This document shows, one piece after another, positions 17,425 through 40,108 of a stretch of 40,492 bases of DNA. The stretch is from positions 1 to 40,492 of the forward strand of contig JAFEBL010000031.1 of the NCBI GenBank assembly GCA_018242665.1, given 5' to 3'. The notes under the pieces were generated by a model. It had not been told where the DNA came from, searched no databases, and saw only the letters and a program-made list of their open reading frames with translations. Every line of letters begins with the position of its first letter. Position 1 is the first letter of the stretch. Source of the DNA: Nitrospira sp. (GTDB lineage: Bacteria; Nitrospirota; Nitrospiria; Nitrospirales; Nitrospiraceae). Made by a program: the position numbers and the translations under genes.

Positions 17425-18324
17425 TCACGGCAGCGGTACAGAAAACATCACCTTCGTGCCGCGTTCGTTATAGGTCAAATCGGGGAAAAAGGCTTTGGCC
17501 AAAAGGACGCCGCGTCCGTTTGCGTCACAGTTGTCTGAAGGATGTTTGCCTTGAGTCAGGATGCGATTCCAGGTGAACCCGTGGCCCTCATCGGCAATCG
17601 CATAGTGAAGCCGGCGACGGTTGAGATCATAGCTGGCATGAACGACCACGCGGCGCGTGATGAATCGTGGGTCACGACGGCGTGCCTCGATCAAGGCCTC
17701 GAATCGATCGGTGCTGAGTGCCTGTTGCTTCTCGTGACATTGAATTTCCAGGCTGCCATGTTCCACGGCATTGACGATGAGTTCGATGAGGGTCGCGCGA
17801 AGATGCAGGCGCTGGGATTCCGGAAGTTTCCCGGCCGTTTGTTCGATCAACCAGCTCACGCAGGCTTCGACCTGATGGGGATCGGTGCCGATGGTGAGAC
17901 GGTAGTCCAATTGCTCAATGCCTGAAATCGCCTCCACCGAACAGGGCAGCCTCTGTATCGCGCGCTCCAGAGCCAGCCCCAGCTCTGCGGCACAGGTCGG
18001 TTGTGGCACAAAGTCTGTCCCGCCGGCGCGCATGGCCTCAAGGATTGTACTTGCGTCGGCTGTGTCGGCGGAGGCGATCATGACCGTGGAGGCCCAACGA
18101 TTGCGGATGGCCTCCATCAGCAGGTGTCCGGTGCGTTCCGGCAAGAAGAGATCCGTGATGACGATGTCCGGGAGCGCCATTTCCACCATGGCGAGCGCCG
18201 CTCTGGGATCCGGAGCGGTGACGACGGAGAGGTGATGCGATGCGGCTTGTTCCAGCGTGAGGGCTAACGTGTCGGAATCGGGGAGGACTGCCAGCAGGGT
18301 ACGGGACGTCCTCGAGGGGGTCAT
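17425..18324 (-). CDS. REC-like domain fused to RsbW-type anti-sigma/HATPase kinase
   Basis: A 299-residue protein. Residues 8-125 fold like a receiver with D58 in IVITDLFLP, but the acidic pair is P15-D16 and the conserved lysine is Q108 (FVPQPT), so the phosphorylation site looks degenerate. Residues 140-299 form a GHKL ATPase of the anti-sigma type: N-box ELIVNAVEHGS with N185, G1 box IADEGHGF with D245, and G2 region GRGVLLAKAFF (270-280). It should phosphorylate a STAS partner and so sequester or release a target. The ATG overlaps the Hpt stop by four bases (ATGA). It is the last gene of the partner-switching operon. Confidence 0.85.
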   Translation of the reverse strand: MTPSRTSRTLLAVLPDSDTLALTLEQAASHHLSVVTAPDPRAALAMVEMALPDIVITDLFLPERTGHLLMEAIRNRWASTVMIASADTADASTILEAMRAGGTDFVPQPTCAAELGLALERAIQRLPCSVEAISGIEQLDYRLTIGTDPHQVEACVSWLIEQTAGKLPESQRLHLRATLIELIVNAVEHGSLEIQCHEKQQALSTDRFEALIEARRRDPRFITRRVVVHASYDLNRRRLHYAIADEGHGFTWNRILTQGKHPSDNCDANGRGVLLAKAFFPDLTYNERGTKVMFSVPLP

Positions 18325-18680
18325 GTGGGGAATCCTTTTTCGATGATCGTCACCAGCGTCTCCGTGAGGCGCCCTGTTTCCCTGTGCACTTGCTCAGCCA
18401 ATGCGGCAAGATCCTGTCGCGCAGCGTTGCGGGCCGATTCTTCCAACTGCGCCGCGGAGGTCACCGTGGGCATGGCGCAAAATTCCATAGCCGATCCCTT
18501 TAACTTGTGCGCTTCTTTCATTAAAGCCTGCAGATCTCCCGCAGTCATCGCGGCCTGAATGGCAGAAAGCGCTTGAGGCGACCGTTCGACGAACAAGCCG
18601 GCTAATGTCAGAAACAGCTCTTGGTCGCCATCCAACCGATCGAGCGCGGCGGCCAGGTCCATGACTGATTGAACATCCAC
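18321..18680 (-). CDS. histidine phosphotransfer (Hpt) protein
   Basis: A 119-residue single Hpt domain. The phosphorylatable histidine is H58 in AHKLKGSAMEF (57-67), the exact H-x-x-K-G-S pattern of Hpt proteins. It lies in a four-helix bundle beginning LDRLDGDQELFLTLAGLF. It should shuttle phosphate between a kinase and a receiver, most simply the REC-PP2C protein encoded just upstream or the REC-like protein downstream. The GTG start overlaps the preceding stop by one base (TAGTG) and its own stop overlaps the next start by four bases, so the three genes are tightly coupled. Confidence 0.9.
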   Translation of the reverse strand: MDVQSVMDLAAALDRLDGDQELFLTLAGLFVERSPQALSAIQAAMTAGDLQALMKEAHKLKGSAMEFCAMPTVTSAAQLEESARNAARQDLAALAEQVHRETGRLTETLVTIIEKGFPT

Positions 18681-19945
18681 TATGCCCTTCCCTTCCGTGC
18701 TCCCGATCCGTCCAGGAGTTCCAGCCCTAACAACGCGACATCATCGGGAAAAATCTCCCCGCCCAGCCACTGGTGGGCGATGGCCATGGTTTCGGTGATG
18801 CTCTGAACCAGGCTGGACGTACGATGCTCCTCGAGTGTGGCCTGCAGGCGAGACTTGCCCCAGAGTTCTCCCGTCGTGGAGGGTGCCTCGTAGATGCCGT
18901 CGCTCAGGAGGTAGAGCCGGTCATTCGGCCGCAGCTGCGCGCAGACGGTATCAAAGGTCGACGCGGGATCGAACCCGAGGGGAAGGCTGGCCGCCGCCAG
19001 CCACTGAGAGTCGCCGGCGGCGGCATGCAGAAACGCGCCGCCATGGCCGGCCGTAGCGTAGGACAACATGTGCGAGGTGAGATCGAGGCGCCCGACCCAC
19101 AAGGTGAAATATTCACCGTCTTGGCTCAACGGAAACCTCTGGTTGGCTTCGTTGATGATCGCGCCGGGGTCAAAGCTGCCAACGGCTTTCACCAGATTGT
19201 CTTCGCGCAGGAAGGTCATGAGCCCCACCGCCCGCAAGGCTGCGGCGACACCATGGCCGGATGCATCGAGAATGTACAGCCCGAGTGCGTCTGTACCCCA
19301 GGGACAGACCTGGAAGAGATCTCCTCCCAGGGCTAGCGACGGCTGATAGGCCCAGTGCATGGCGATGCCCGAAGCCGGGACGCCGGGCAATGGGAGCTGG
19401 GCGCGCACGAAGCTCGCGGCTGACTGCAATTCACTTTCCAATTCATGTTGCTTTGCGGACAGCAGCTTGTGCGACCGATCGAGATCATCCCTCGTGCGTT
19501 CAATTTCGCGAACCAACGCGCTCGATCGCAAGCTGGCCTGCACTCGCGCGAGGACTTCCTGCTTGCTGGCAGCTTTGCTGAGAAAATCATCGGCCCCGCG
19601 CGAGAGGCCTTCAGCAATCTGTTCGGGCCGGTCGTGCGCGGTCATCAAGACGACTTGACTGGAGCGCAACTCGGGATCCGCGCGGATTGCTTCACAGACG
19701 CTGGGCCCGTCCATCCCCGGCATCATCCAATCCAAGATCACCAAGTCAGGCCGTTGCGTGCGGATCGCGGCCAAGCCGGCGCTTCCATCGACGGCTTCGA
19801 TGACACGGTATCCCAAACGCTTTAAGCGACCGGCCATGCCGATTCGGGTGATGTCGTCGTCGTCGACTAGCAAAATCAGCGGCACCGGCTTGTGAACCGT
19901 GTCAACGCTGATCGGCGGTGATGTCTGCGGTGCGGGTTCCCCCAC
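18680..19945 (-). CDS. response regulator fused to PP2C/SpoIIE phosphatase (RsbU/HsbR-like)
   Basis: A 421-residue protein. The receiver occupies ~22-140, with an acidic cluster at ILLVDDDDITR, phospho-acceptor D72 in VILDWMMPGMDG, and K124 (FLSKA, where the usual proline after lysine is alanine). A coiled-coil linker (~142-185) leads to a SpoIIE-type PP2C domain: metal-binding D209 in LALGGDLF, D227 in ILDASGHGVAAAL, and YLLSDGIYEAP near 345. It should dephosphorylate a phospho-STAS protein under control of receiver phosphorylation, which sets the state of the partner switch. It lies 21 bases downstream of the STAS gene that is its likely substrate. The domain order matches the first two thirds of Pseudomonas HsbR. 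Confidence 0.92.
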   Translation of the reverse strand: MGEPAPQTSPPISVDTVHKPVPLILLVDDDDITRIGMAGRLKRLGYRVIEAVDGSAGLAAIRTQRPDLVILDWMMPGMDGPSVCEAIRADPELRSSQVVLMTAHDRPEQIAEGLSRGADDFLSKAASKQEVLARVQASLRSSALVREIERTRDDLDRSHKLLSAKQHELESELQSAASFVRAQLPLPGVPASGIAMHWAYQPSLALGGDLFQVCPWGTDALGLYILDASGHGVAAALRAVGLMTFLREDNLVKAVGSFDPGAIINEANQRFPLSQDGEYFTLWVGRLDLTSHMLSYATAGHGGAFLHAAAGDSQWLAAASLPLGFDPASTFDTVCAQLRPNDRLYLLSDGIYEAPSTTGELWGKSRLQATLEEHRTSSLVQSITETMAIAHQWLGGEIFPDDVALLGLELLDGSGARKGRA

Positions 19946-19966
19946 GTGGACGGCTCCTGAAACTGT

Positions 19967-20317
19967 CTATCCGACGGCCGGCAGGTGAATCGCCGCGAGT
20001 GCGTCCTGCTCCGAGTGATAGATCGGCAGCATCTGATGCAGATTTGCCAAGGTGATAATTTCTTTTACGTAACTTTGAGGATTCAACAAACTGATTCTTC
20101 CCGGCGTCCCATTCAGGCCTTGCGCCACGAGCGCCAGCGTCCCGAGCGCCGAACTGTCCAGGAAACGAACTGCGTGCATGTTCAGAATCAGATGCCGACA
20201 CCCGCCGGCTTTCACCCGATCGACCGCACCTTTGAATGTGGCGCGGTTGGCATAGGTCAGCTCCCCGACCAGGTCGAGGATCGCGACTGTTCCGACCCGC
20301 CGTTCTGTAATCTGCAT
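19967..20317 (-). CDS. STAS-domain anti-sigma factor antagonist
   Basis: A 116-residue single STAS domain of the RsbV/SpoIIAA type. The beta-strand VAILDLVGELTYANRATF (11-28) and the phosphorylation loop RFLDSSALGTL (51-61; serines 55/56) are canonical. It is presumably phosphorylated by the RsbW-like kinase and dephosphorylated by the REC-PP2C protein encoded 21 bases downstream, switching between partners. The next STAS gene is 30 bases upstream, so there are two antagonists for one kinase/phosphatase pair in this operon. Confidence 0.92.
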   Translation of the reverse strand: MQITERRVGTVAILDLVGELTYANRATFKGAVDRVKAGGCRHLILNMHAVRFLDSSALGTLALVAQGLNGTPGRISLLNPQSYVKEIITLANLHQMLPIYHSEQDALAAIHLPAVG

Positions 20318-20347
20318 GCCCGGCCCCCTCTCCGACGGCGGAACCGC

Positions 20348-20686
20348 TCACGCGCTCTTCTTGACCATCGCCGGCGAATCAGATTCGATCAGCGGAATCG
20401 TCTTGTGCAAATTGGCCAACTCGATAATCTGCCGGACGGTCGGCTGGGGATAGGCCAGCGACAACGTGCGCTTTTCGGCTTGCAACTGCCGATGGGAAAT
20501 CATGAGCAGTCCCAACGCGGCGCTGTCGAGGAACGCCACTTGCGTGAGGTCGATCACGATCTGATCTATGCCGTCAATGGCGACCGCCTTCAACATTTCT
20601 TGAAACGGCTTGCGCTGGGTGTACGTAAAATTGCCTTCCAGTTTCAATGTGACTTTGTGATTATTGACTTCTTTCGTGATTTTCAT
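20348..20686 (-). CDS. STAS-domain anti-sigma factor antagonist
   Basis: A 112-residue STAS domain. It opens KVTLKLEGNFTYTQRKPF (11-28) and has the phospho-loop AFLDSAALGLLM (51-62) with S55. It is a paralogue of the STAS protein encoded 30 bases downstream and carries the same F-x-Y-x-x-R element after the first strands. A GAGGAG precedes the ATG at good spacing. It lies 29 bases after cheB, so chemotaxis and partner-switching genes are probably co-transcribed. Role as a second substrate of the RsbW-like kinase is inference. Confidence 0.92.
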   Translation of the reverse strand: MKITKEVNNHKVTLKLEGNFTYTQRKPFQEMLKAVAIDGIDQIVIDLTQVAFLDSAALGLLMISHRQLQAEKRTLSLAYPQPTVRQIIELANLHKTIPLIESDSPAMVKKSA

Positions 20687-21825: not shown

Positions 21826-22443
21826 TTAGAAGAGCGTGATATCGCTCTGTTGAACTTTCGGCTCTTCTTCGATCCGGTGCTGGTATGCCGATTCCCGCTC
21901 GTAGATGGTGCGGTTTTTCACCCGTTCGATCTTTTTCATCAGCACCCGCCCAGAATCGGTAAAGTAGTACACCTTTCTCGGGTACACATCGCCGAGATCG
22001 CTCTTGGCGATGCTATAGCCCTCCGTCTTCAGAAATTGCAGGACCCATTCGGTGTTCCTGGCGCCGACATCGATATTGCCTTCATAGATGCGTCCTGCCC
22101 CGAACAGTTTGACCTCCAGGCGATGCTTCACTCCGCCGCGTTTAAAAATTTCGTTGATCAGTTGCTCCATCGCGAAGGAGCCGTAGCGCGTCGACTCCCC
22201 TCCCCACGAGTCTCCCGATTGGTGCTCCTTGGGGGCAGGAAGCATGAAATGGTTCATGCCGCCAACGCCGACGATTGGATCGCGAATGCATGCCGAGATG
22301 CAGGAACCGAGGACGGTGTACACCACCATCGGTTCCCGACTGACGAAGAATTCGCCAGGCAGAATGCAGGCGACTTCGTGAGGAAACCGGCGGTCGTGCA
22401 TCCGGCGGATGTGGGAGAAGGTGTCGGTGTCGACGACTGGCAT
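21826..22443 (-). CDS. cheD: CheD, chemoreceptor glutamine deamidase
   Basis: A 205-residue protein. The catalytic triad of the CheD family is seen as T43 and C48 in YTVLGSCISACI and H65 in GGMNHFMLP. CheD converts specific receptor glutamines to glutamates and can bind CheC-type phosphatases or receptors. The frame is open further upstream inside cheR, but the ATG at 22443, just five bases past the cheR stop, is the natural start. It is longer than many CheD proteins (about 160-170 residues) because of a polar C-terminal extension ending QQSDITLF. A similar TLF ending occurs on the receptor/CheZ-like protein in this cluster. Confidence 0.92.
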   Translation of the reverse strand: MPVVDTDTFSHIRRMHDRRFPHEVACILPGEFFVSREPMVVYTVLGSCISACIRDPIVGVGGMNHFMLPAPKEHQSGDSWGGESTRYGSFAMEQLINEIFKRGGVKHRLEVKLFGAGRIYEGNIDVGARNTEWVLQFLKTEGYSIAKSDLGDVYPRKVYYFTDSGRVLMKKIERVKNRTIYERESAYQHRIEEEPKVQQSDITLF

Positions 22444-23271: not shown

Positions 23272-23733
23272 CTAGCTCCGATACCAGACGAATAACATGA
23301 GGTATACCAAATAGGCGGTGGCCATCGTGCCGCTGAAGGTCCACACGAGGGCGTGGCCCATGCGGCGATGCGTCGTCATGCCGGCCACCATCGCGCCCAC
23401 GCTCCCGAACCGGAGGCGATGAAGCCCCATGTAGAGGTTGTACGCAGCAAGCACGATGGTTGAGACTGCCAACACCATGTGGGTGACAAAGAGCGGAACG
23501 TACAGAGACCAATAGTCGCTCTCTGGCCCTTTGAACGATTCCCGTCCGAACAGAGCTTGTTTGAGCACGTAGGCGACCAGCCAGATGCCGACGATGGTGC
23601 ACCCGACGATCATGCGATGGGAATGGTGCGACACATCGTGGGACTTGGCGGCGCGGACGCCGGCCAACACGACCAAGTAAGCCACCGTCAAGCTGGTGAG
23701 GACGAGATACCAGAGGATGGTCTTCAGATCCAT
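23272..23733 (-). CDS. DUF420 (YozB/CtaM-like) membrane protein
   Basis: A 153-residue protein with four to five membrane helices (about 5-25, 41-60, 78-100, 128-149). It carries the DUF420 histidine pattern: HSHRMIVG (37-44), VTHMVLAV (83-90) and THRRMGHALVWTF (121-133), then a YLVYLMLF last helix. Family members such as staphylococcal CtaM are needed for heme-copper oxidase function, which suggests heme or copper handling at the membrane. It is unusual to find it inside a chemotaxis operon: it follows the globin receptor and precedes cheR by four bases. A FliA-like promoter lies upstream. A redox- or heme-related accessory role for the receptors is inference. Confidence 0.82.
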   Translation of the reverse strand: MDLKTILWYLVLTSLTVAYLVVLAGVRAAKSHDVSHHSHRMIVGCTIVGIWLVAYVLKQALFGRESFKGPESDYWSLYVPLFVTHMVLAVSTIVLAAYNLYMGLHRLRFGSVGAMVAGMTTHRRMGHALVWTFSGTMATAYLVYLMLFVWYRS

Positions 23734-23933: not shown

Positions 23934-26246
23934 CTAGAACTCTTCGAAGTCATCATCCTTCTTGTGATGGCCGTTCCCCGCCGAAACACCGACCGGCTGC
24001 TTGGCATCTGCCGGCTTCGATGAGAAGCCAGGTTTTTTCAAGCCCGGCTTCGGGGCGGCCACGGCCGACTTGACCACCGTTCTGGTCGCCGATGCGGCTG
24101 GGCGCGAGACCGCGCGGGGTTCGGAGGAGTTGACGATGAACATTTCCATTTGGTTCATCAACTCCTTCGCCTGATCCTTCATCGATTGGCTGGCCGAGGT
24201 GGTTTCCTCAACCAACGCCGCGTTCTGCTGCGTGGTCTCGTCCATCTGCATGATGGCCTTATTAACCTGGTCGATCCCCTGCGCCTGCTCCTGAGAGGCC
24301 GCGGTGATCTCCGCGATGATGTCGGTCACTCGTTTCACCGAGCTGACGATCTCCTCCAGCGTTTTGCCGGATTGGTTCACCAACTCGCTGCCGTCGCTGA
24401 CGCGTTGGATCGATTCATTGATCAATCCCTTGATCTCTTTGGCCGCCGTCGCCGAGCGCTGCGCCAGGTTCCGGACTTCTGCCGCAACCACCGCGAATCC
24501 GCGGCCGTGCTCGCCAGCCCGAGCCGCTTCCACTGCGGCGTTCAACGCCAAGAGATTCGTCTGGAAGGCGATCTCGTCGATCACGGTGATGATGTCCGCG
24601 ATCTTTTTGCTGCTCTTGTTGATCTCGCCCATCGCTTCCACCGCGCGAACCGTGACGGAGCCGCCTTTGTCGGCGATATCTCGCGCCGCAATGGCCAGCT
24701 GATTCGCCTGCTTGGCGTTGTCAGCATTTTGCTTCACGGTCGACGTCATTTCTTCCATGGAGGCAGACGTTTCCTCCAGCGCGCTGGCTTGTTCCGACGT
24801 ACGCTGCGAGAGATCTTCGTTGCCCTTGGTAATTTGCTCTGCGCCGGAGGATACGGCCTGGACAGCTTCTCGCACGGTCGTGATGGTGCTAGTCAGGTTC
24901 TGCACGACCGCATTGATGCTGCACTTCACTTTGTCCAGATCGCCTCGATAGGTCTCGGTCATCTCGAGCGTGAGATCGTTGTTCGCCAGTCGGCCGAGGA
25001 CTGCCTGCGCCTCTGCTACCAGCTTCTCCATGTCCGCTTGCGACTGCTTCTGCGCAGTGATATCCGTCGCAAACTTCACGACCTTGTACGGTTTTCCGCT
25101 GGCATCGAAGATGGGGTTGTAGGAGGCTTGAATCCAAATCTCCCTGCCGCCCTTCGCGATCCGCTTGTAGACACCGGCATCGAATTCTCCGCGGTTCAGC
25201 TTGGCCCAAAAGGCCTGGTACTCGACGCTGTTGGCGAACGCCGGGTCCGCAAACATCCGGTGATGCTTGCCCTTGATTTCATCCAGGCTGTAACCCAGAC
25301 AGGCGAGGAAGTTGTCGTTGGCGGTGACGACGGTTCCGTCGAGATTGAACTCAATGACCGCCTGCGACTTGCTCATTGCGGCCGCCTGCTGTTCCATCTT
25401 CCGCTTTTCCGTCACATCGGCCCACTCCAGTGCATTGCCGAGATACTCTCCGGTCTGGCTCATGACGGCGGTGACCAACAGGCTGAGGGTCAGCGGGCCG
25501 ATCTGAATGTCGGCCTTGTGCGGCATGTTGGCCGGGTCGGACAAGATTCTGCGCTGCTTGCTGGGGTCGAGATGGAAGTCATCGATACAAGTCCCCACCA
25601 CTGAATTCACATTGAACTTCGGCAGCACCTTTTTAATTTCTGATTCAAGGGCCGTGAGGGTCTTCTTCGCCGTCGAGTTGGCATAGGTGATGACCAAATT
25701 GCGATCGCAGAGCAGAATGTTGTTTTGCGACTGTTCCAGTGCGCCCAGGTAAAAGCCGCTCATATCCATCTGCGCTGGCGCTTTCTTCTTTGTCTTCGCC
25801 GGTGCCTTACTCATTGTCTTCTCTCCTTCTGTGTGGTGTCCTCGTTTTGCTCCTTCGAGCATAATCGTCTTAATGGCCGTATAGGCGTCCGTCCAGGCTT
25901 GACTGACTTCGGCGGTCCAGGCGTTCCCGGCGAATTCGCCCAGCACCGCCAACAGATTTTCCCCGACCGCGTCGTAGTACGCCGGCTTGGCGCCGTACCC
26001 GACATGCCTGGCTCCCATCTCCTGCAACACGGGAGTGAGTTTTTCCGGATGGCGGAGGTTTTGGATGACCAGCACGAGAGAAGCCAACAGCTTTTTCTTC
26101 TGTTCGCTGATGGACGCGTTCTTGAACAGCGGCTTGACGACCGGATACTTCTCGAACAGACGTTCATAGAAGCGGGTCACCAACGCGTCGCCCTGCGGTG
26201 CCACAAGTTTAAAGCTCGATTCCAACAATTCGATGTTCAGTCCCAT
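23934..26246 (-). CDS. cytosolic chemoreceptor: globin - PAS - PAS - MCP signalling domain
   Basis: A 770-residue receptor without membrane helices. Residues 1-136 are a flavohemoglobin-like globin: B10 tyrosine Y27 (RFYERLF), CD1 phenylalanine F41, E7 glutamine Q49 and proximal histidine H81 (GARHVGYG). PAS-like domains follow at ~160-285 and ~293-400 ([18 protein letters not shown]), then a HAMP-like stretch (~408-455) and a full MCP hairpin whose tip is [24 protein letters not shown] in halves around the QTNLL core. A flexible Pro/Ala/Lys-rich tail (~690-765) ends in DFEEF, a likely CheR/CheB tether. It should sense O2, NO or redox state and control CheA through CheW. The ATG has AGGGAG upstream. 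A strong internal Shine-Dalgarno and ATG exists at residue 145. Confidence 0.95.
25814..25828 (-). promoter_or_regulatory. internal Shine-Dalgarno and ATG within the globin receptor gene
   Basis: AAGGAG (25828-25823) stands 8 bases before an in-frame ATG (25814-25812, residue M145, MSKAPAK). Initiation here would give a ~626-residue receptor lacking the globin domain. It may be an active second start or a relic of a gene fusion. Confidence 0.45.
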
Positions 26247-26271: not shown

Positions 26272-26781
26272 TTAAGCGGCGATTTTCTCGGATTCCGTCA
26301 TATCTCCGTCGGTCAGCAGGCGGTCCATATCCAGCAGTGCAACCAGCTTGTCGCCGGCTTTGCCGATGCCGTTCAGGAAGCTCACATCGACCTGCGCGCC
26401 GAATTGAGGTGCGGGCTGAATATCTTTCTTATCGATATCGAGCACGTCGGAGACGGCATCCACGACGAGGCCCATGATTTTTTCCTTCACGACGACGACC
26501 ACGATTACGGTGAACATCGTGTATTCGATCGTCGGCATGCCGAACTTCGTTCGCAGCTCGACAATGGGAACGATGGTGCCACGCAGGTTCAACACACCTT
26601 TGATGTGGGGCGGGGTATTGGGAATGCGTGTGACCGCCGTATACCCTTTGATCTCCTGCACGCGGAGAATGTCTACGCCGTACAATTCTTCGCCCAGTTG
26701 AAACGTGAGAAACTGACTGCCGTCCGTGGTGATCCCCATTTGATGATTCAACTCTTTGTTCACCGACTCCTGTTCTGCCAT
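26272..26781 (-). CDS. cheW: CheW, chemotaxis coupling protein
   Basis: A 169-residue SH3-like coupling protein linking receptors to CheA. Typical elements are FLTFQLGEELYGVDILRVQEI (in part, about 23-43), YTAVTRIPNTPPHIKGVLNLRG and VPIVELRTKFGM, with VVVKEKIMGLVVDAVSDVLDI in the second half. The receptor and CheA contact residues around the conserved N-L-R-G are intact. It lies between cheA (54 bases upstream) and the globin receptor gene (25 bases downstream), so it most likely couples that receptor to the adjacent kinase. Confidence 0.96.
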   Translation of the reverse strand: MAEQESVNKELNHQMGITTDGSQFLTFQLGEELYGVDILRVQEIKGYTAVTRIPNTPPHIKGVLNLRGTIVPIVELRTKFGMPTIEYTMFTVIVVVVVKEKIMGLVVDAVSDVLDIDKKDIQPAPQFGAQVDVSFLNGIGKAGDKLVALLDMDRLLTDGDMTESEKIAA

Positions 26782-26835: not shown

Positions 26836-28959
26836 CTATGCCGCCTTGGCCGTCCCTTTCCGAGAAATGTTGAGCAATCCGCGGACATCCAGAATGAACC
26901 CGACCGTGCCGTCCCCGAGAATGGTGGCGCCGGCGACGCCTTCGATCTTTCTGAAGTTCTGCTCCATGCTCTTGATGACGACCTGCTGCTGCCCGAGAAT
27001 CTCATCGACCATGACCGCCACGCGCTCGCCTTCCGTTTCCAGAATCAGGAGGATGGCCTTGGTCGGATCCGACAGTTCCGGTTCCAGACGGAAGACTTCG
27101 TAGAGACGCATCAACGGCAGGTAGGTGCCGCGCACGTTCACCAGCTCCCCTTTCCCGACGAGGGTCTTGATCATCTCGCGTTTAGGCTGAATCGATTCCA
27201 GAATCGACAGGAGGGGGACGATGTAGGTGTCCTTGCCGACTCGAACCGTCATCCCTTCGATGATCGCCAGAGTCAGCGGCAGCTTGAGGGTAAAAGTGGT
27301 GCCCTTCCCTGCCGTGGTCTTGATGCTGACCGTGCCGCCCAAGCCTTCGATGTTACGCTTCACCACGTCCATGCCGACCCCGCGGCCGGAGACGTCGGTG
27401 ACCTTTTCAGCAGTCGAGAATCCAGGTTTGAAAATCAACATCCAGATCTGTTCGTCCGACAATTTGTCCGACTCGCTGATCAGTCCTTGCTTGAGGCCTT
27501 TGGCGAGGATCTTCTCTCGATTCAGGCCACGACCATCGTCTTCCACGGTGATGCAGATGTTGCCGCCTTCATGGAACGCATTCAGACGGATGATACCTTG
27601 CTCGGGCTTGCCTGCCGCCACCCGTTCGTCAGGAGGCTCCAGACCATGGTCCGCTGAGTTCCGTACCAAGTGCGTCAATGGATCCCCGATCGATTCGATC
27701 ACCGTCTTGTCGAGTTCGGTTTCCTCGCCCGACAGAATCAAATGAATCTTTTTGCCTGCCTTACCGGAGAGGTCGCGGACGAGGCGCGGAAACCGGCTAA
27801 ACGCGTTTCCGATGGGGACCATGCGAATGCCCATGACCCGTTCCTGAATCTCCCGGGTATTGCGTTCGAGTTGCGCCACCCGTTCCAGCAAGACAGGAAG
27901 CTGACTCATTTCAAAGCGGGAGCCCAGATCGCTCAACATGGACTGCGTAATGACCAGTTCGCCTACGAGATTGATCAATCGATCGATCTTGACGGTATCG
28001 ACCCGAATGGAAGGGGTTTCCGCCTTTTTCGCGGGTGTTGCCGCTTCCGATTGGACCTTTAAGGCGTCGGAGATTTGTTTCGGCGTGGCGATCTTCTGTT
28101 CGATCAAAATCTCGCCGACTCGCTTTTGCTGCGACAGGGCTTGGTTCAACTCTGTCTGGGAGACGATGCCGCTCTCGACGAGGATTTCGCCTAAGGGCTT
28201 CACACCCTCGGACGAAACGGATGAGGAAGAACTCGTCAGGGGCTGATCGACGATCGTCAAGGTGCTGTCTTCGCGCACGAAATCAAACACGGCCTCGATG
28301 ACCTTCAGATCCTTGACTGTATCCAGTTCGAGCGTCCAGGCCAGGTAGCACTGCTCTGGATCCAGGTCCTTCAAACCGGGCAATCGGCTGCGATCGAGTG
28401 CGACATGGGACACGGCGCCCAGTTCGCCCAGTTCCTTGATGAACTGGGTTGGGTCCAGTCCTCGTTGAAAGAGATACCGCGGGGGGACCCACGTGATCAG
28501 GTAGTGATGGTTCTCCTGTGCCTGAGACTGCGCCGGCGCGGGTGATATCGCCCCAGGCTTGGGCGCTGCCGCCCCGCTCTGACAGGCTTCGAGTCGTGCT
28601 CCCAATTCTGACACCAGATCGTCGTTGGGCGCCTCCCCGGACTTTGCGCAATCGATCAAAGTCTTGAGGCAATCGAGCGACTGCAGCAGGAGATCGGCGA
28701 CCTCCACTGTCACCACCATCTGGCTGCTGCGGAGCTGGTCGAGAACGGATTCCATCTTGTGCGTAAACTGAGAGACGGCCGTGAAGCCGAACATGCCGCT
28801 GTTGCCTTTGATGGAATGTGCGCCGCGGAAAATTCGGTTGAGGAGGTCGATGTCCCCGGGACGTTGTTCGAGTTGGAGCAATCCTTCCTCGATCGTCGTC
28901 AGGTGTTCCTGCGATTCTTCGAAGAATGCGTCTTTGAAATGGGACAGGTCAGTGCTCAT
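26836..28959 (-). CDS. cheA: CheA histidine kinase with inserted MshEN-like repeats
   Basis: A 707-residue kinase. Domains in order: P1 Hpt with H48 in RGAHSIKGNSGMFGF; a ferredoxin-like P2-type domain (~150-238; ITWVPPRYLFQRGLDPTQF); two 24-residue repeats (255-278 and 280-303), each beginning x-[LV]-G-E-I-L and ending in Q; P3 dimerisation helices (IDRLINLVGELVITQSML); the P4 HATPase with LVRNSADHGLE, DDGRGLN and GRGVGMDVV; and P5 CheW-like. It autophosphorylates and passes phosphate to CheY and CheB. The repeats resemble the c-di-GMP-binding MshEN fold of type II secretion and pilus ATPases, though the key arginine is kept only in the second. It sits between cheY and cheW. Confidence 0.95.
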   Translation of the reverse strand: MSTDLSHFKDAFFEESQEHLTTIEEGLLQLEQRPGDIDLLNRIFRGAHSIKGNSGMFGFTAVSQFTHKMESVLDQLRSSQMVVTVEVADLLLQSLDCLKTLIDCAKSGEAPNDDLVSELGARLEACQSGAAAPKPGAISPAPAQSQAQENHHYLITWVPPRYLFQRGLDPTQFIKELGELGAVSHVALDRSRLPGLKDLDPEQCYLAWTLELDTVKDLKVIEAVFDFVREDSTLTIVDQPLTSSSSSVSSEGVKPLGEILVESGIVSQTELNQALSQQKRVGEILIEQKIATPKQISDALKVQSEAATPAKKAETPSIRVDTVKIDRLINLVGELVITQSMLSDLGSRFEMSQLPVLLERVAQLERNTREIQERVMGIRMVPIGNAFSRFPRLVRDLSGKAGKKIHLILSGEETELDKTVIESIGDPLTHLVRNSADHGLEPPDERVAAGKPEQGIIRLNAFHEGGNICITVEDDGRGLNREKILAKGLKQGLISESDKLSDEQIWMLIFKPGFSTAEKVTDVSGRGVGMDVVKRNIEGLGGTVSIKTTAGKGTTFTLKLPLTLAIIEGMTVRVGKDTYIVPLLSILESIQPKREMIKTLVGKGELVNVRGTYLPLMRLYEVFRLEPELSDPTKAILLILETEGERVAVMVDEILGQQQVVIKSMEQNFRKIEGVAGATILGDGTVGFILDVRGLLNISRKGTAKAA

Positions 28960-29050: not shown

Positions 29051-29422
29051 TCACCCCGGTAACACTTTCTTGATGACCGCCATCATCTGCTCGGGATTGA
29101 ACGGTTTCACGATCCATCCGGTTGCGCCCGCCGCCTGCCCGGCCTTCTTCTTGTCATCGGACGCTTCCGTGGTCAGCATCAAGATCGGCGTGAACTTGAG
29201 AGCCGGCATTTTCCGGATTTCCTTGATCAATGAGATGCCGTCCATTTCCGGCATGTTCAGATCGGTGACGACCAAGTCCGGCTTGGTGCCGCCGTTGACT
29301 TTCCCGACCGCCTCCTTGCCGTTTCCGGCTTCGACGACCTTGTAGCCGGCGCTACTCAGGGTAAAAGCCACCATTTGTCGCATCGTCGGGGAATCGTCGA
29401 CCACTAAGACTGTTTTCGACAT
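29051..29422 (-). CDS. cheY: CheY, chemotaxis response regulator
   Basis: A 123-residue single receiver domain. The acid pocket is VLVVDDSPTMRQM (5-17), the phospho-acceptor D54 in VVTDLNMPEMDG, the switch threonine near 84-85 in LMLTTEAS, and K106 in WIVKPFNPEQM. Tryptophan 103 stands where enteric CheY has tyrosine 106. Phospho-CheY would bind the flagellar switch or act as a phosphate sink. AAGGAG precedes the ATG. It lies between cheA (91 bases downstream) and the receptor/CheZ-like gene (37 bases upstream), which encodes a probable phosphatase for it. Confidence 0.95.
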   Translation of the reverse strand: MSKTVLVVDDSPTMRQMVAFTLSSAGYKVVEAGNGKEAVGKVNGGTKPDLVVTDLNMPEMDGISLIKEIRKMPALKFTPILMLTTEASDDKKKAGQAAGATGWIVKPFNPEQMMAVIKKVLPG

Positions 29423-29459: not shown

Positions 29460-30578
29460 TCAAAACAGGGTGACATTGGCATCTTCTGTTGGCGCGGCAG
29501 CTTGCGACGCTTGGGCAAACTGGCCGTTGGTCGATTGATGAAACAGCGCACGCTCTTCTTCCATGGTGTAGCTCTTGTCGAGCTTGCTCAGGAAATCCAA
29601 CCTGGCGGCCACCTGCTCTCGCGGCTGTCCTTGAAGCAAGGCATCCATCAATTCGCGCACTTCGGTGAGCGGCTCGATCACGTGTTCCAGTTTCTGCCTG
29701 GTGATGTCCTGAAACTGCAGCGCCATGATGATTTTGCCGACGTCTTGCGCCAACTCGTCCGCGTGTGATTTGGAGTTCAGGATGGCGGCATGCAGGGTCT
29801 TGTTGCGTTCAGTCAGGTTGCGGGTCATCTGATCCAGACGATGTTTGATCGAGAGCGTTTTGCTGAGGTCGACGGAGGCCAGGCTTTCCACCGTGGTCAT
29901 GGCCTGACTGGTGCTTTTCTGCACCTCCTTCACCATGCTGTTGATGCTGCATGCGGCTTGTCCGGATCGGTTGGCGAGTTTGGTCACTTCGTCGGCCACC
30001 ACGGCGAATCCCCGTCCGTGTTCTCCCGCGCGCGCCGCCTCGATCGCGGCATTCAGCGCAAGCAGCCGCGTCTGGTCCGCAATGAATTGGATCTCACCGA
30101 TCATGCCGGTGATCGCCTTGGTGCTGCGTTCCACTTCGTCCATGATCGTCGCGATGTTGAGCGCCATTTCCGACGACTTCATGACGTCACTGACAAACCC
30201 TTCGAGCATGGTATCCGTGGTTTTCAGCACGGTGTCCATGTTGAGTTCGCCGCCGCCGCCATAGAGGGTCATGAATTCGTTGCCCTGAGCGGTGGCGCGA
30301 GAGGCAATCATGCTGAAACGCTGACCCAGATCGGTCGCGGCTTCTTCGGTCTGATGAATCACGCTTTTCATTTGGGCGTTCAGGATCAGCACGAGCGGCA
30401 TCATCGAATGCCCGAGTTGCTCCCACAAGCCGGTCCGATCGGCATGGTCCTTGAGGGTGCCTTCGAACGTGGAGCGAAGCGAGTCCTGCGTGGAGGCAGT
30501 CTGCCGATGACATCGGGCCCAGGACACATATGCACCGAGACAAAACGCGCACAGGACGTACAACAAGTCGAGAATCAT
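29460..30578 (-). CDS. membrane-anchored MCP-like protein with CheZ-type FQDxxxQ motif
   Basis: A 372-residue protein. One N-terminal hydrophobic segment (1-19) anchors it; there is no periplasmic sensor or HAMP. A short MCP signalling hairpin spans ~120-235 with the tip [20 protein letters not shown] (166-185). After it, residues ~255-315 form another helical segment with [20 protein letters not shown] (283-302). This matches the catalytic helix of CheZ, with D291 and Q295 equivalent to the CheZ acid and glutamine, and it aligns with the CheZ in this window. The C-terminus is DANVTLF. A receptor-array-bound phosphatase for the CheY encoded 37 bases downstream is the simplest reading, but unproven. 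Confidence 0.82.
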
Positions 30579-30608: not shown

Positions 30609-30839
30609 TTACGCGCCCAAGTCGGCCATTCGCGCTCGCAGGGAATCGGTCATCCCGGTCAACACGAACTGTTCGGATTGGCGCACGGCAATCACGAGTT
30701 GAATCGCCGAGGCGTCGAGCTTGTCGACTTCGGACAGGTCCAATTCCACTTGCGGATGGGCGGCAGCGGTCTGTTTCAGTTCCTCGCAGAGTGCCGCCAC
30801 CTCGAATATTGTCAGATCACCAGTCGGCTTGAGGGTCAT
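30609..30839 (-). CDS. small STAS-domain protein
   Basis: A 76-residue STAS domain: LTIFEVAALCEELKQTAA, VELDLSEVDKLDASAIQLVI (31-50) with S44 in the phospho-loop, then FVLTGMTDSLRARMADLG. The frame is open eight codons earlier, but AAAGGAG lies 7-8 bases before the ATG at 30839. It is more compact than the two STAS proteins near the PP2C gene and resembles the small STAS proteins often placed first in chemotaxis operons. It begins the transcription unit with the MCP/CheZ-like gene, 30 bases downstream. A FliA-like promoter lies 45 bases upstream. Its kinase partner is unknown. Confidence 0.85.
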   Translation of the reverse strand: MTLKPTGDLTIFEVAALCEELKQTAAAHPQVELDLSEVDKLDASAIQLVIAVRQSEQFVLTGMTDSLRARMADLGA

Positions 30840-37551: not shown

Positions 37552-39423
37552 TCAGGCTGCGATGCCCGGGTTGTGCCAGGCCTGCGCATTCTGTACCAGT
37601 TCCGACGTATCCAAGATCAGCACCACTTTTCCCTCACCGGTGATCGTGGCGCCGGACACGCCCTTCACGGTTTCGAGGTAATCCCAGATGGACTTGATGA
37701 CGACTTCTTCTTGCGAACGAAGTTCATCAACGACGACACCGATGCGCCGATCTCCCAACGCGGCCACCACGACATAGAACCGCTCCCGGTCTGCATCCGT
37801 CGGGATGTCGAATTCCTGTGCCAAGCGAATGAGCGGAAGGACGCGGTCCCGCAAATGCAGCACTTCCCGCCCGTTGATGGTTTTGATATCGCTGCGGGAA
37901 ATCCGGACCGCTTCAATCACGGTGCTCAGCGGAATCGCGAAAATCGATCGCTCGACTTCGACCATCAGCGCCTGGATAATGGCGATGGTCAGCGGCAGCT
38001 TGATGATGATCTGGCTGCCTTTTCCCGGTTCCGATTCCAGATCCACGCTGCCGTTGATCTTGCGAATGTTGGTGCGAACGACGTCCATCCCGACGCCGCG
38101 GCCTGAGACATCGGTGACCTGCTCGGCCGTGCTGAATCCCGGAAGAAAAATGAGATTCAAGACTTCACGGTGTTCCATGGTCGCGAGCTCGGCTTCACTC
38201 ACCAGCCCCTTGCTCAGAGCCTTGGCTTTGATCTTTTCCACCTGGATGCCGCGCCCGTCGTCGTTGATGCGAATGACGATGCTGTTGCCTTCTTGACTGG
38301 CCGCGATGGTCAGCAATCCCTCCCCGGTCTTGCCTTTCGCCTGGCGATCCGCCGGTGTTTCAATGCCGTGGTCGATGGCGTTGCGCACGAGGTGAACCAG
38401 GGGATCGCCGATTTCGTCGGCTACGGACTTGTCGAGCTCAGTCTCCTCACCATGCATTTCCAGACGGACCTGCTTGTTCAGTTTCTGGGACAGGTCACGC
38501 ACCATGCGAGGGAGCTTGGCGAAGACCTTCTTGATGGGCAGCATGCGAGTCTTCATTACGGCCAGCTGCAAGTCGGTCGTCACCAGGTTGAGTTGCGCGA
38601 GTGTTTCGCTCAGCACACGAACCTGAGGATCCGACTCATGCTGTTGCTCTAACTGCGTGCCGATTTTGATGAGACGATTGCGTCCCAGCACCAGCTCGCC
38701 GACGAGATTCATGACGCTGTCCAGCCGTTTGGTTTCCACCCGGATGGTGGCGTCCTCTTCCACCGGCTTCGATTGTTTTTCCTGTTTATGCAGCGCCTGA
38801 TCCAGGGCGCGCTCTGTGATGGCCTTGGCCTGAAGCAAAATCTCGCCGAGCGGAGTCTTGGGTTCAGCCTGATGCTGCTGGGCCGTCAAGGCGTCAAACA
38901 CCTGCTCCTTCGAGGCCAGTCCGTCGTTGACGAGAATCTCGCCGATGGTCTGGGCTGGGGCGGCCTCAGGCGCCGCCGCTTCGACTGTGGGTGGCGCCGT
39001 GTCCGCCGCAGGGGCTGGCATGGCGGCGACCGGATTCCCGTTCAAGATATCGTCGAGTTTGGCGGCGATGGCCTGGGTCGGCACGTGGCTGTCCGTCCCG
39101 GAATCCTTGATGTCGGCCATGATGGCCTTAATGACGTCCACCGTTTCGAGAATCACGCTGATGATGGCCGGGCTGACCGCCATTTCGGCTTGCCGGAGTT
39201 TATTGAGAATATTTTCTCCGCGATGCGCGACATCCACGAGATGATTGAATCCCAAAAACCCCGCGGAGCCTTTCATGCTGTGCATCGCACGAAAAATTTC
39301 ATTGAGCAGGTCGGTATTGTTCGGATCGGACTCCAGCGTGACAAACCGCTGATCCAGGACCTCGAGCATCTCGTTCGATTCGGTCAGAAAGTCGTTGAGT
39401 ATTTCCTGCATTTCATCGCTCAT
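37552..39423 (-). CDS. cheA: CheA histidine kinase with inserted MshEN-like repeats
   Basis: A 623-residue kinase. P1 has H48 in RAMHSMKGSAGFLGF. There is no P2 domain like that of the other CheA; instead an Ala/Pro-rich linker (~130-157) leads to two 24-residue repeats (159-182 and 191-214), each with x-[IL]-G-E-I-L and a terminal Q. P3 (LDSVMNLVGELVLGRNRL), P4 (LVRNAIDHGIE, NDDGRGIQ, GRGVGMDVV) and P5 (CheW-like, LVLILDTSEL near the end) follow. It phosphorylates CheY, CheB and CheV. The repeats are MshEN-like, but neither keeps the leading arginine. The gene follows cheZ by 8 bases and precedes cheV. Confidence 0.95.
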   Translation of the reverse strand: MSDEMQEILNDFLTESNEMLEVLDQRFVTLESDPNNTDLLNEIFRAMHSMKGSAGFLGFNHLVDVAHRGENILNKLRQAEMAVSPAIISVILETVDVIKAIMADIKDSGTDSHVPTQAIAAKLDDILNGNPVAAMPAPAADTAPPTVEAAAPEAAPAQTIGEILVNDGLASKEQVFDALTAQQHQAEPKTPLGEILLQAKAITERALDQALHKQEKQSKPVEEDATIRVETKRLDSVMNLVGELVLGRNRLIKIGTQLEQQHESDPQVRVLSETLAQLNLVTTDLQLAVMKTRMLPIKKVFAKLPRMVRDLSQKLNKQVRLEMHGEETELDKSVADEIGDPLVHLVRNAIDHGIETPADRQAKGKTGEGLLTIAASQEGNSIVIRINDDGRGIQVEKIKAKALSKGLVSEAELATMEHREVLNLIFLPGFSTAEQVTDVSGRGVGMDVVRTNIRKINGSVDLESEPGKGSQIIIKLPLTIAIIQALMVEVERSIFAIPLSTVIEAVRISRSDIKTINGREVLHLRDRVLPLIRLAQEFDIPTDADRERFYVVVAALGDRRIGVVVDELRSQEEVVIKSIWDYLETVKGVSGATITGEGKVVLILDTSELVQNAQAWHNPGIAA

Positions 39424-39431
39424 AGCCCACC

Positions 39432-40082
39432 TCAGTTAAAACCGAATTGCTTCAAGATCTCGTCGGCGAGATCCTGGTCCATGGAGGTATTCTTGGTCGC
39501 TTCCAACTGCTTCAGCATCTCGCTCGCCTTGTCCTGGCTTTGCTTGGCCGCCTGCTTTTGATAGGGACCAAAGACCACGACCAGTTGCAACAGCTTGTGT
39601 TCGACTTCCTGCAGAATCGTGACGAGTTTGTTGACGCTCTGCGCGACTAAGTCCTGAAAGGACAACGCGGTCATGATATCGAGCAATCGCTTGTCGTCGG
39701 CGCCAATGGCTTGATTGATGGCCTGCAGCTGTTGAAGGAGTGCCGGAGCGGTCTTCGCGTGCTGCAAGGCGAGCGTCAGCTCTTTAATCATGCCGCTGAG
39801 CTTCAGGTGATTGTCTTGAATAGCTTCGACCTCGAGCATGACGCGATGAGTCCCCTGCTCGGTCATGGTCTTGAGGTTCGTCAGATGCGTCAGTGCCTGC
39901 GGCAACTGTTCTGTCGATGTGCTGACCGGCGTGCTGAACTCGGACAACGTCTTCATCGTGGTATCGATGAATCGAGCGAGTTCCCCCAGTTCCTCGTAGA
40001 GCTTGGTGTCGGGTGCCTTTCCCCCCTGCTCATCCTCGTCTGCCGCATTGTGCGCTTGTGCCGCCACGCGTGGTTCTGCCAT
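39432..40082 (-). CDS. cheZ: CheZ, CheY-P phosphatase
   Basis: A 216-residue protein. The frame opens at a GTG four codons earlier, but that GTG lies inside the Shine-Dalgarno GGTGAGGG that serves the ATG at 40082. The long helical hairpin contains LDIMTALSFQDLVAQSVNKL with the catalytic aspartate and glutamine spaced D-x3-Q, equivalent to D143 and Q147 of E. coli CheZ. The C-terminus DLADEILKQFGFN matches the CheZ CheY-binding peptide (LLxSLGF type) after a flexible linker. It removes phosphate from CheY-P. It lies 26 bases after cheY and 8 bases before cheA. Confidence 0.93.
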   Translation of the reverse strand: MAEPRVAAQAHNAADEDEQGGKAPDTKLYEELGELARFIDTTMKTLSEFSTPVSTSTEQLPQALTHLTNLKTMTEQGTHRVMLEVEAIQDNHLKLSGMIKELTLALQHAKTAPALLQQLQAINQAIGADDKRLLDIMTALSFQDLVAQSVNKLVTILQEVEHKLLQLVVVFGPYQKQAAKQSQDKASEMLKQLEATKNTSMDQDLADEILKQFGFN

Positions 40083-40108
40083 CGTCACCCTCACCGGTTA
40101 AGAGCCGA

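Follow-up and report, generated by a model that had tools for sequence, protein, structure and literature searches.

Modelling of chemotaxis faces a persistent question, namely where CheY-P is broken down with respect to the kinase, and one gene of Nitrospira sp. bears on it. The window considered here (the whole stretch of DNA analysed, 40,492 nucleotides of contig JAFEBL010000031.1) carries, just before its second chemotaxis gene set, an ORF referred to as MCPZ, in which the signalling hairpin of a chemoreceptor (MCP) is joined to a stretch resembling the phosphatase CheZ. The initial annotation, which gave no strand, proposed that this protein has a built-in CheZ-type phosphatase motif; the ORF lies on the minus strand (30578-29460). 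Is it a receptor, a phosphatase or both? The analysis favors a receptor-phosphatase chimera: MCPZ, encoded in a cluster whose genes follow the F7 stage 1 order, is probably a CheZ-type phosphatase that is tethered to the array and acts on the CheY2 encoded next to it. Its parts are as follows.

29460..30578, minus strand: MCPZ, whole ORF, 372 aa, membrane-anchored MCP hairpin plus CheZ-like module
30513..30572, minus strand: N-terminal hydrophobic/transmembrane (TM) helix, residues 3-22 (hydropathy 1.99 in the first sliding segment)
30309..30386, minus strand: conserved N-arm block, residues 65-90, common to hairpin-less homologues and resembling the TEQAA motif of the CheZ N-arm
29724..30158, minus strand: MCP signalling hairpin, residues 141-285 (Pfam MCPsignal, 6.6e-31; tip Glu at residue 186)
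29694..29714, minus strand: FQDITRQ motif (residues 289-295), in which D291 (29708-29706) and Q295 (29696-29694) form the putative catalytic pair
29550..29570, minus strand: YTMEEER block, residues 337-343, conserved, no function assigned
29463..29477, minus strand: last five residues, NVTLF (compare DITLF at the end of the CheD encoded in this cluster)

The receptor character of MCPZ is evident in its hairpin, which, as in MCPs generally (PF00015), is complete and has a canonical tip; its MCPsignal score is 107.9 bits against a Pfam cut-off of 34.6. In the predicted structure, residues 135-236 superpose on Tsr in the E. coli core signalling unit (6s1k_E; Z 13.9, 1.3 Å, 45% identity) and residues 28-321 on the Thermotoga maritima MCP 2ch7, the AF2 models being monomers of moderate confidence (pLDDT 77, pTM 0.37). 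MCPZ differs from MCPs in that its membrane anchor is a single TM helix at the N-terminus (by hydropathy), in lacking a CheR pentapeptide at the C-terminus, and in that no periplasmic, HAMP, PAS or other sensor domain was found with Pfam up to E 1.

Behind the hairpin comes the 17-residue CheZ-like stretch that had been noticed from the sequence, with FQDITRQ at 29714-29694. In the long forms of several phyla, almost without exception, 105 residues (15 heptads) separate the tip Glu from the D of the motif. The motif takes up the height at which a C-arm methylation site is found in E. coli receptors. On the opposite arm, the family consensus is PLVxxLxxQMxxVxxQTExAA, and its TExAA block is placed about 108-116 residues ahead of the MCP tip, so that it would face the FQD region once the hairpin closes. 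The CheZ-like motif is no simple C-terminal addition: the conserved N-arm is part of the same module, with the MCP hairpin between the two arms. Further along, the Y, T and R of the YTMEEER block are nearly invariant, and its M and E are invariant in A2.

The neighbors of MCPZ in the window are listed below, together with the ordinary CheZ of the adjoining cluster.

30609..30839, minus strand: STAS-like protein, encoded immediately upstream of MCPZ and recognized by eye in the reading frame
29051..29422, minus strand: CheY2, the proposed substrate, 37 bp downstream of MCPZ (Pfam Response_reg, 4.4e-29)
26836..28959, minus strand: CheA2, kinase of the MCPZ cluster
26272..26781, minus strand: CheW2
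23934..26246, minus strand: globin-PAS-MCP receptor in an aer2-like slot, C-terminus DFEEF (CheR pentapeptide type)
39432..40094, minus strand: CheZ1, ordinary CheZ of the neighboring cluster, for comparison only (Pfam CheZ, 7.9e-21, 75.3 bits)

The cluster reads STAS, MCPZ, cheY2, cheA2, cheW2, globin-PAS MCP, DUF420 membrane protein, cheR, cheD, cheB2, two STAS, RR-PP2C, Hpt and RR-HATPase, several of these names being based on reading of the sequence and blastp among these proteins. As described, it has its own CheY next door and no separate CheZ; a STAS-like gene precedes MCPZ in most Nitrospirales loci. The order matches, with exceptions, that of the F7 stage 1 systems of gammaproteobacteria (anti-sigma antagonist, cheY, cheA, cheW, aer2-like MCP, cheR, cheD, cheB, STAS, PP2C; PMC7184735), a class assignment made by gene order. 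It differs in that MCPZ is inserted between STAS and cheY, in having one cheW and no mcpA-like gene, and in the added DUF420 gene. The same survey reported cheZ only with F6 systems in gammaproteobacterial genomes (PMC7184735).

Some further features of this region may be recorded. The DUF420 membrane protein (window 23272-23733, minus strand; Pfam 2.5e-24), encoded between the globin-PAS MCP and cheR, occurs in many Nitrospira loci, and cheB2 is followed by a partner-switch-like output set (17425-20686, minus strand) of two STAS-like proteins, RR-PP2C, Hpt and RR-HATPase. Both CheA proteins of the window (37552-39423 and 26836-28959, minus strand) contain an MshE-type c-di-GMP-binding motif (43.2 and 45.2 against 38 bits, NCBIfam). 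CheD (21826-22390, minus strand) ends SDITLF and MCPZ ends NVTLF; a [VI]TLF-like end is found in 72 of 80 MCPZ homologues and 20 of 26 ORFs labelled CheD, and is possibly a docking peptide common to the two proteins.

How close, then, is MCPZ to CheZ? The second Pfam family to match it is CheZ (PF04344; residues 213-331, E 1.9e-4), with 21.8 bits below the gathering cut-off of 30.7, and the NCBIfam CheZ model NF041271 gives 22.6 against a cut-off of 350. The globin-PAS MCP of the same window has no CheZ match in Pfam up to E 1. Translation of the window in six frames finds FQDxxxQ in MCPZ and, at 39659, in the CheZ of the neighboring cluster, with no other occurrence. When the stretch is aligned to E. 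coli CheZ (1kmi_Z), KIMMAQDFQDLTGQ, D291 and Q295 fall on D143 and Q147, in agreement with the spacing of the CheZ catalytic pair claimed earlier. Against a profile of Nitrospirota CheZ plus E. coli CheZ, the C-arm of the MCPZ family scores E 7.5e-7 (hhalign) and the hairpin-less homologues, with both arms, 1.7e-5; ordinary MCP C-arms taken at the same height as a control give 0.042. Sub-threshold Pfam CheZ matches recur in family members from Nitrospirota, Geobacter, Spirochaetota, Acidobacteriota and deltaproteobacterial/Myxococcota MAGs.

The N-arm is a different case. It aligns with CheZ in the correct register of the TExAA-type block, RLYYVVQMTAQAA, and when an N-arm HMM was run against 8825 ORFs plus CheZ sequences, the first match outside the family was CheZ in that register (E 0.04). 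By profile alone, N-arm homology was not significant, the value of 0.012 against CheZ being no better than that of ordinary MCP N-arms (0.0036), and it is only suggested.

MCPZ and CheZ (PF04344; E. coli 1kmi, CheZ1) have in common the FQDxxxQ helix with its acid/amide pair, similar residues ahead of that motif (KIxMAxxFQD) and a partner cheY encoded nearby, to which the N-arm may add a TExAA-like block facing the helix. They differ in the MCP hairpin between the arms of MCPZ, its N-terminal TM anchor and its extra YTMExER block. The C-terminal CheY-binding end of CheZ (xxLLxxLGF type; CheZ1 ends ILKQFGFN) is also absent, NVTLF standing there instead of an LGF-type end, and because neither this end nor a score above the Pfam cut-off is present, MCPZ is not filed as a CheZ. 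On present evidence it would nonetheless work like one.

A catalytic role predicts that D and Q are held together. Among 64 module copies chosen by profile rather than by motif, the primary modules retain the two residues in 58/58 cases and the degenerate second copies within longer proteins lack the two in 6/6, while the neighboring positions vary (F289 is F, S or Y; Q290 is Q, H, N or S). The profile-picked set was used for this purpose, and not a larger set of 80 loci, since those were fetched from contigs with patterns that contain the motif. A group of proteins of 600-660 aa (L111:1411-3210, L112, L113, L114, L147 and L150-L153) has an intact F[H/Q]DITRQ module followed by a degenerate MCP-like half, several with a second motif copy minus both D and Q; most of them end GDN[VI]ELF.

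The same MCP-FQDxxxQ architecture, which the initial annotation had proposed looking for elsewhere, is not confined to this contig. The 80 loci come from Nitrospirota, Geobacter, deltaproteobacterial/Myxococcota MAGs, Spirochaetota and Acidobacteriota; 56 encode full-length, hairpin-bearing proteins, 21 encode short forms of 177-235 aa, and 3 are cut by contig ends. In 79 of them cheY lies directly after the Z protein, within 1.5 kb, and cheA is nearly always next. Beyond Nitrospirota the module is patchy (18 of 118 genomes in the phylum of G148, 12 of 100 in that of G149), with some longer or degenerate architectures, and no relatives were found on plasmids.

The short forms can be read as a natural deletion experiment. 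They retain the N-arm (5.7e-17 by hhalign against that of long forms), the FQD arm, YTMExER and the VTLF ends, and they occupy the same STAS-Z-cheY2-cheA2 slot, in many Nitrospira with a dedicated CheZ cluster directly adjoining. On a midpoint-rooted CheA2 tree, with hairpin-bearing forms of other phyla on both sides of the root, the genuine short forms make up one clade nested among long forms; only L031 falls outside it, and L031 is a long form cut short by the end of its contig. Two proteins (L048, L049) look intermediate, with T-to-D distances of 60 and 74 instead of 41. The simplest reading would be a single loss of hairpin and membrane anchor in one Nitrospira clade, with retention of the CheZ-like part. 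Since that clade kept both arms, the D/Q pair and the slot, the CheZ-like part appears to be what selection keeps. All sequence-level tests agree with the proposal of a built-in CheZ-type motif: the profiles are similar, D and Q are conserved together and lost together, their spacing to the tip is fixed, the linkage to cheY is conserved, and a hairpin deletion spares the motif.

In other Nitrospirota a single ORF, some 400-435 aa long, encodes CheZ fused behind a CheW domain (L122:787-2082, L130:817-2007, also L125, L131, L132, L134 and L138-L141); in L122 and L130 the CheW and CheZ Pfam matches are both far above cut-off. This fusion is predicted to be a second kind of covalently array-tethered CheZ.

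CheZ is a dimeric four-helix bundle built from two hairpins. Among the structural matches of the short form, modelled as a monomer, 1kmi_Z comes only at rank 50 (Z 8.0), a score that unrelated helical hairpins also reach; this model has no Foldseek match at E <= 0.001, and CheZ is not among the matches listed for the long-form model. These searches count neither for nor against a relation to CheZ. By a helical-wheel estimate, the D of MCPZ makes an angle of 79 degrees with the hydrophobic face, which places it on the flank, and the Q points outward at 130 degrees; the corresponding angles for E. coli CheZ are 160 and 149, so the MCPZ pair is less exposed, a point against the favored reading.

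Because the D/Q pair and the place beside cheY are conserved in several phyla, a phosphatase built into the receptor array is the probable function. In CheZ, the amide side chain orients water and the acidic side chain pairs with the receiver lysine (PMC3035606). For MCPZ, catalysis, CheY2 as substrate and insertion into the array are all inferred: the tip would join the CheA2/CheW2 array, the upper part of the hairpin would bear the CheZ-like site on its C-arm, D291 would engage the active-site lysine of CheY2-P, and Q295 would orient the attacking water as Q147 does in CheZ, so that CheY2-P may be erased beside its own kinase, CheA2. CheY2 keeps D12, D13, D57, N59, E89 and K109 (E. coli numbering); as a point against, its loop 90-95 is unlike that of CheZ-partnered CheYs, with D, E or A for K92 and near-invariant K94/K95.

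Could other phosphatases serve this cluster? Both CheYs could be substrates of CheZ1 from the adjoining cluster, which counts against the favored reading. Within the genome PF04344 is represented by CheZ1 and MCPZ only, and profile searches found no CheX and no CheC; these and FliY use an acid and an amide side chain like CheZ-type enzymes (PMC3035606) but differ from MCPZ in fold and motif. The idea that MCPZ replaces all CheZ was rejected for Nitrospirota, in which 33 of 35 carrier genomes also have a CheZ match. Two genomes of other phyla (G150, G153), of completeness not known, yielded neither CheX nor CheC, nor any CheZ match that passed the cut-off.

Several other explanations have to be weighed. 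The module might be a docking site, or a phosphate sink, for CheY2 or CheY2-P on the array, without catalysis; adjacency to cheY in 79/80 loci fits binding equally, the CheZ-type C-terminal CheY-binding end is missing, and the phosphatase role is deduced from sequence. We regard this as unlikely, as D and Q are kept or lost together, as expected of a catalytic pair, and it is the aromatic neighbors that vary instead. That MCPZ acts on a different receiver encoded in the cluster, such as CheB2, the RR-PP2C protein (18680-19945) or the RR-HATPase protein (17425-18324), rather than on CheY2 is quite improbable: there are several such receivers and a STAS/PP2C partner-switch set lies downstream, but in every phylum examined cheY alone is the immediate neighbor, and Spirochaetota and Geobacter loci keep the ZC-cheY-cheA order amid different surroundings.

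The intact tip, the strong MCPsignal match and the superposition on chemoreceptor cores would also suit an ordinary sensorless MCP that regulates CheA2, with FQDxxxQ a structural stretch. A whole Nitrospira clade has nevertheless dispensed with the MCP hairpin while keeping motif and slot, and ordinary MCP C-arms do not resemble CheZ, which makes such a role very improbable. Low-complexity helices do give spurious matches, as seen in other weak Pfam matches and the N-arm control, and a chance resemblance between coiled coils was therefore entertained. It was rejected on the profile controls (7.5e-7 against 0.042) and the co-loss of D and Q, and with a residue-exact motif, several phyla and fixed linkage to cheY it has next to no likelihood.

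The principle of a CheY-P phosphatase bound to the array has a precedent. E. coli CheZ localizes to the pole through binding CheA and is concentrated there, at the receptors, non-covalently (PMC7750401); in MCPZ, by contrast, the phosphatase-like module is a covalent part of a receptor-like protein. It is this covalent form that appears to be new: no paper describing the MCP-CheZ architecture was found within the open-licence literature, FQDITRQ gave no match there, and searches for CheZ fused to MCP or CheW returned, judging by titles and abstracts, only engineered fusions, databases or unrelated papers. A broader reading, which we put forward as speculative and rather doubtful, would see a widespread, unrecognized receptor-phosphatase class, paralleled by the CheW-CheZ fusions of other Nitrospirota. 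In such a class the erasure of CheY-P would be a covalent part of the array, array state could gate both phosphorylation and dephosphorylation, and the VTLF end shared with CheD would be a docking signal that links adaptation with signal removal.

If MCPZ is, as favored here, a receptor-like protein that brings a CheZ-type site of its own, it would set opposing activities on one lattice, and the hairpin-bearing orthologues, together with the clade that deleted the hairpin in the same genomic slot, offer a natural test set. MCPZ would also give a phosphatase to clusters with F7 stage 1 order, cheZ having been confined to F6 systems in the gammaproteobacterial survey, and it suggests that genomes counted as without CheZ, CheX and CheC may still carry a protein of this type.
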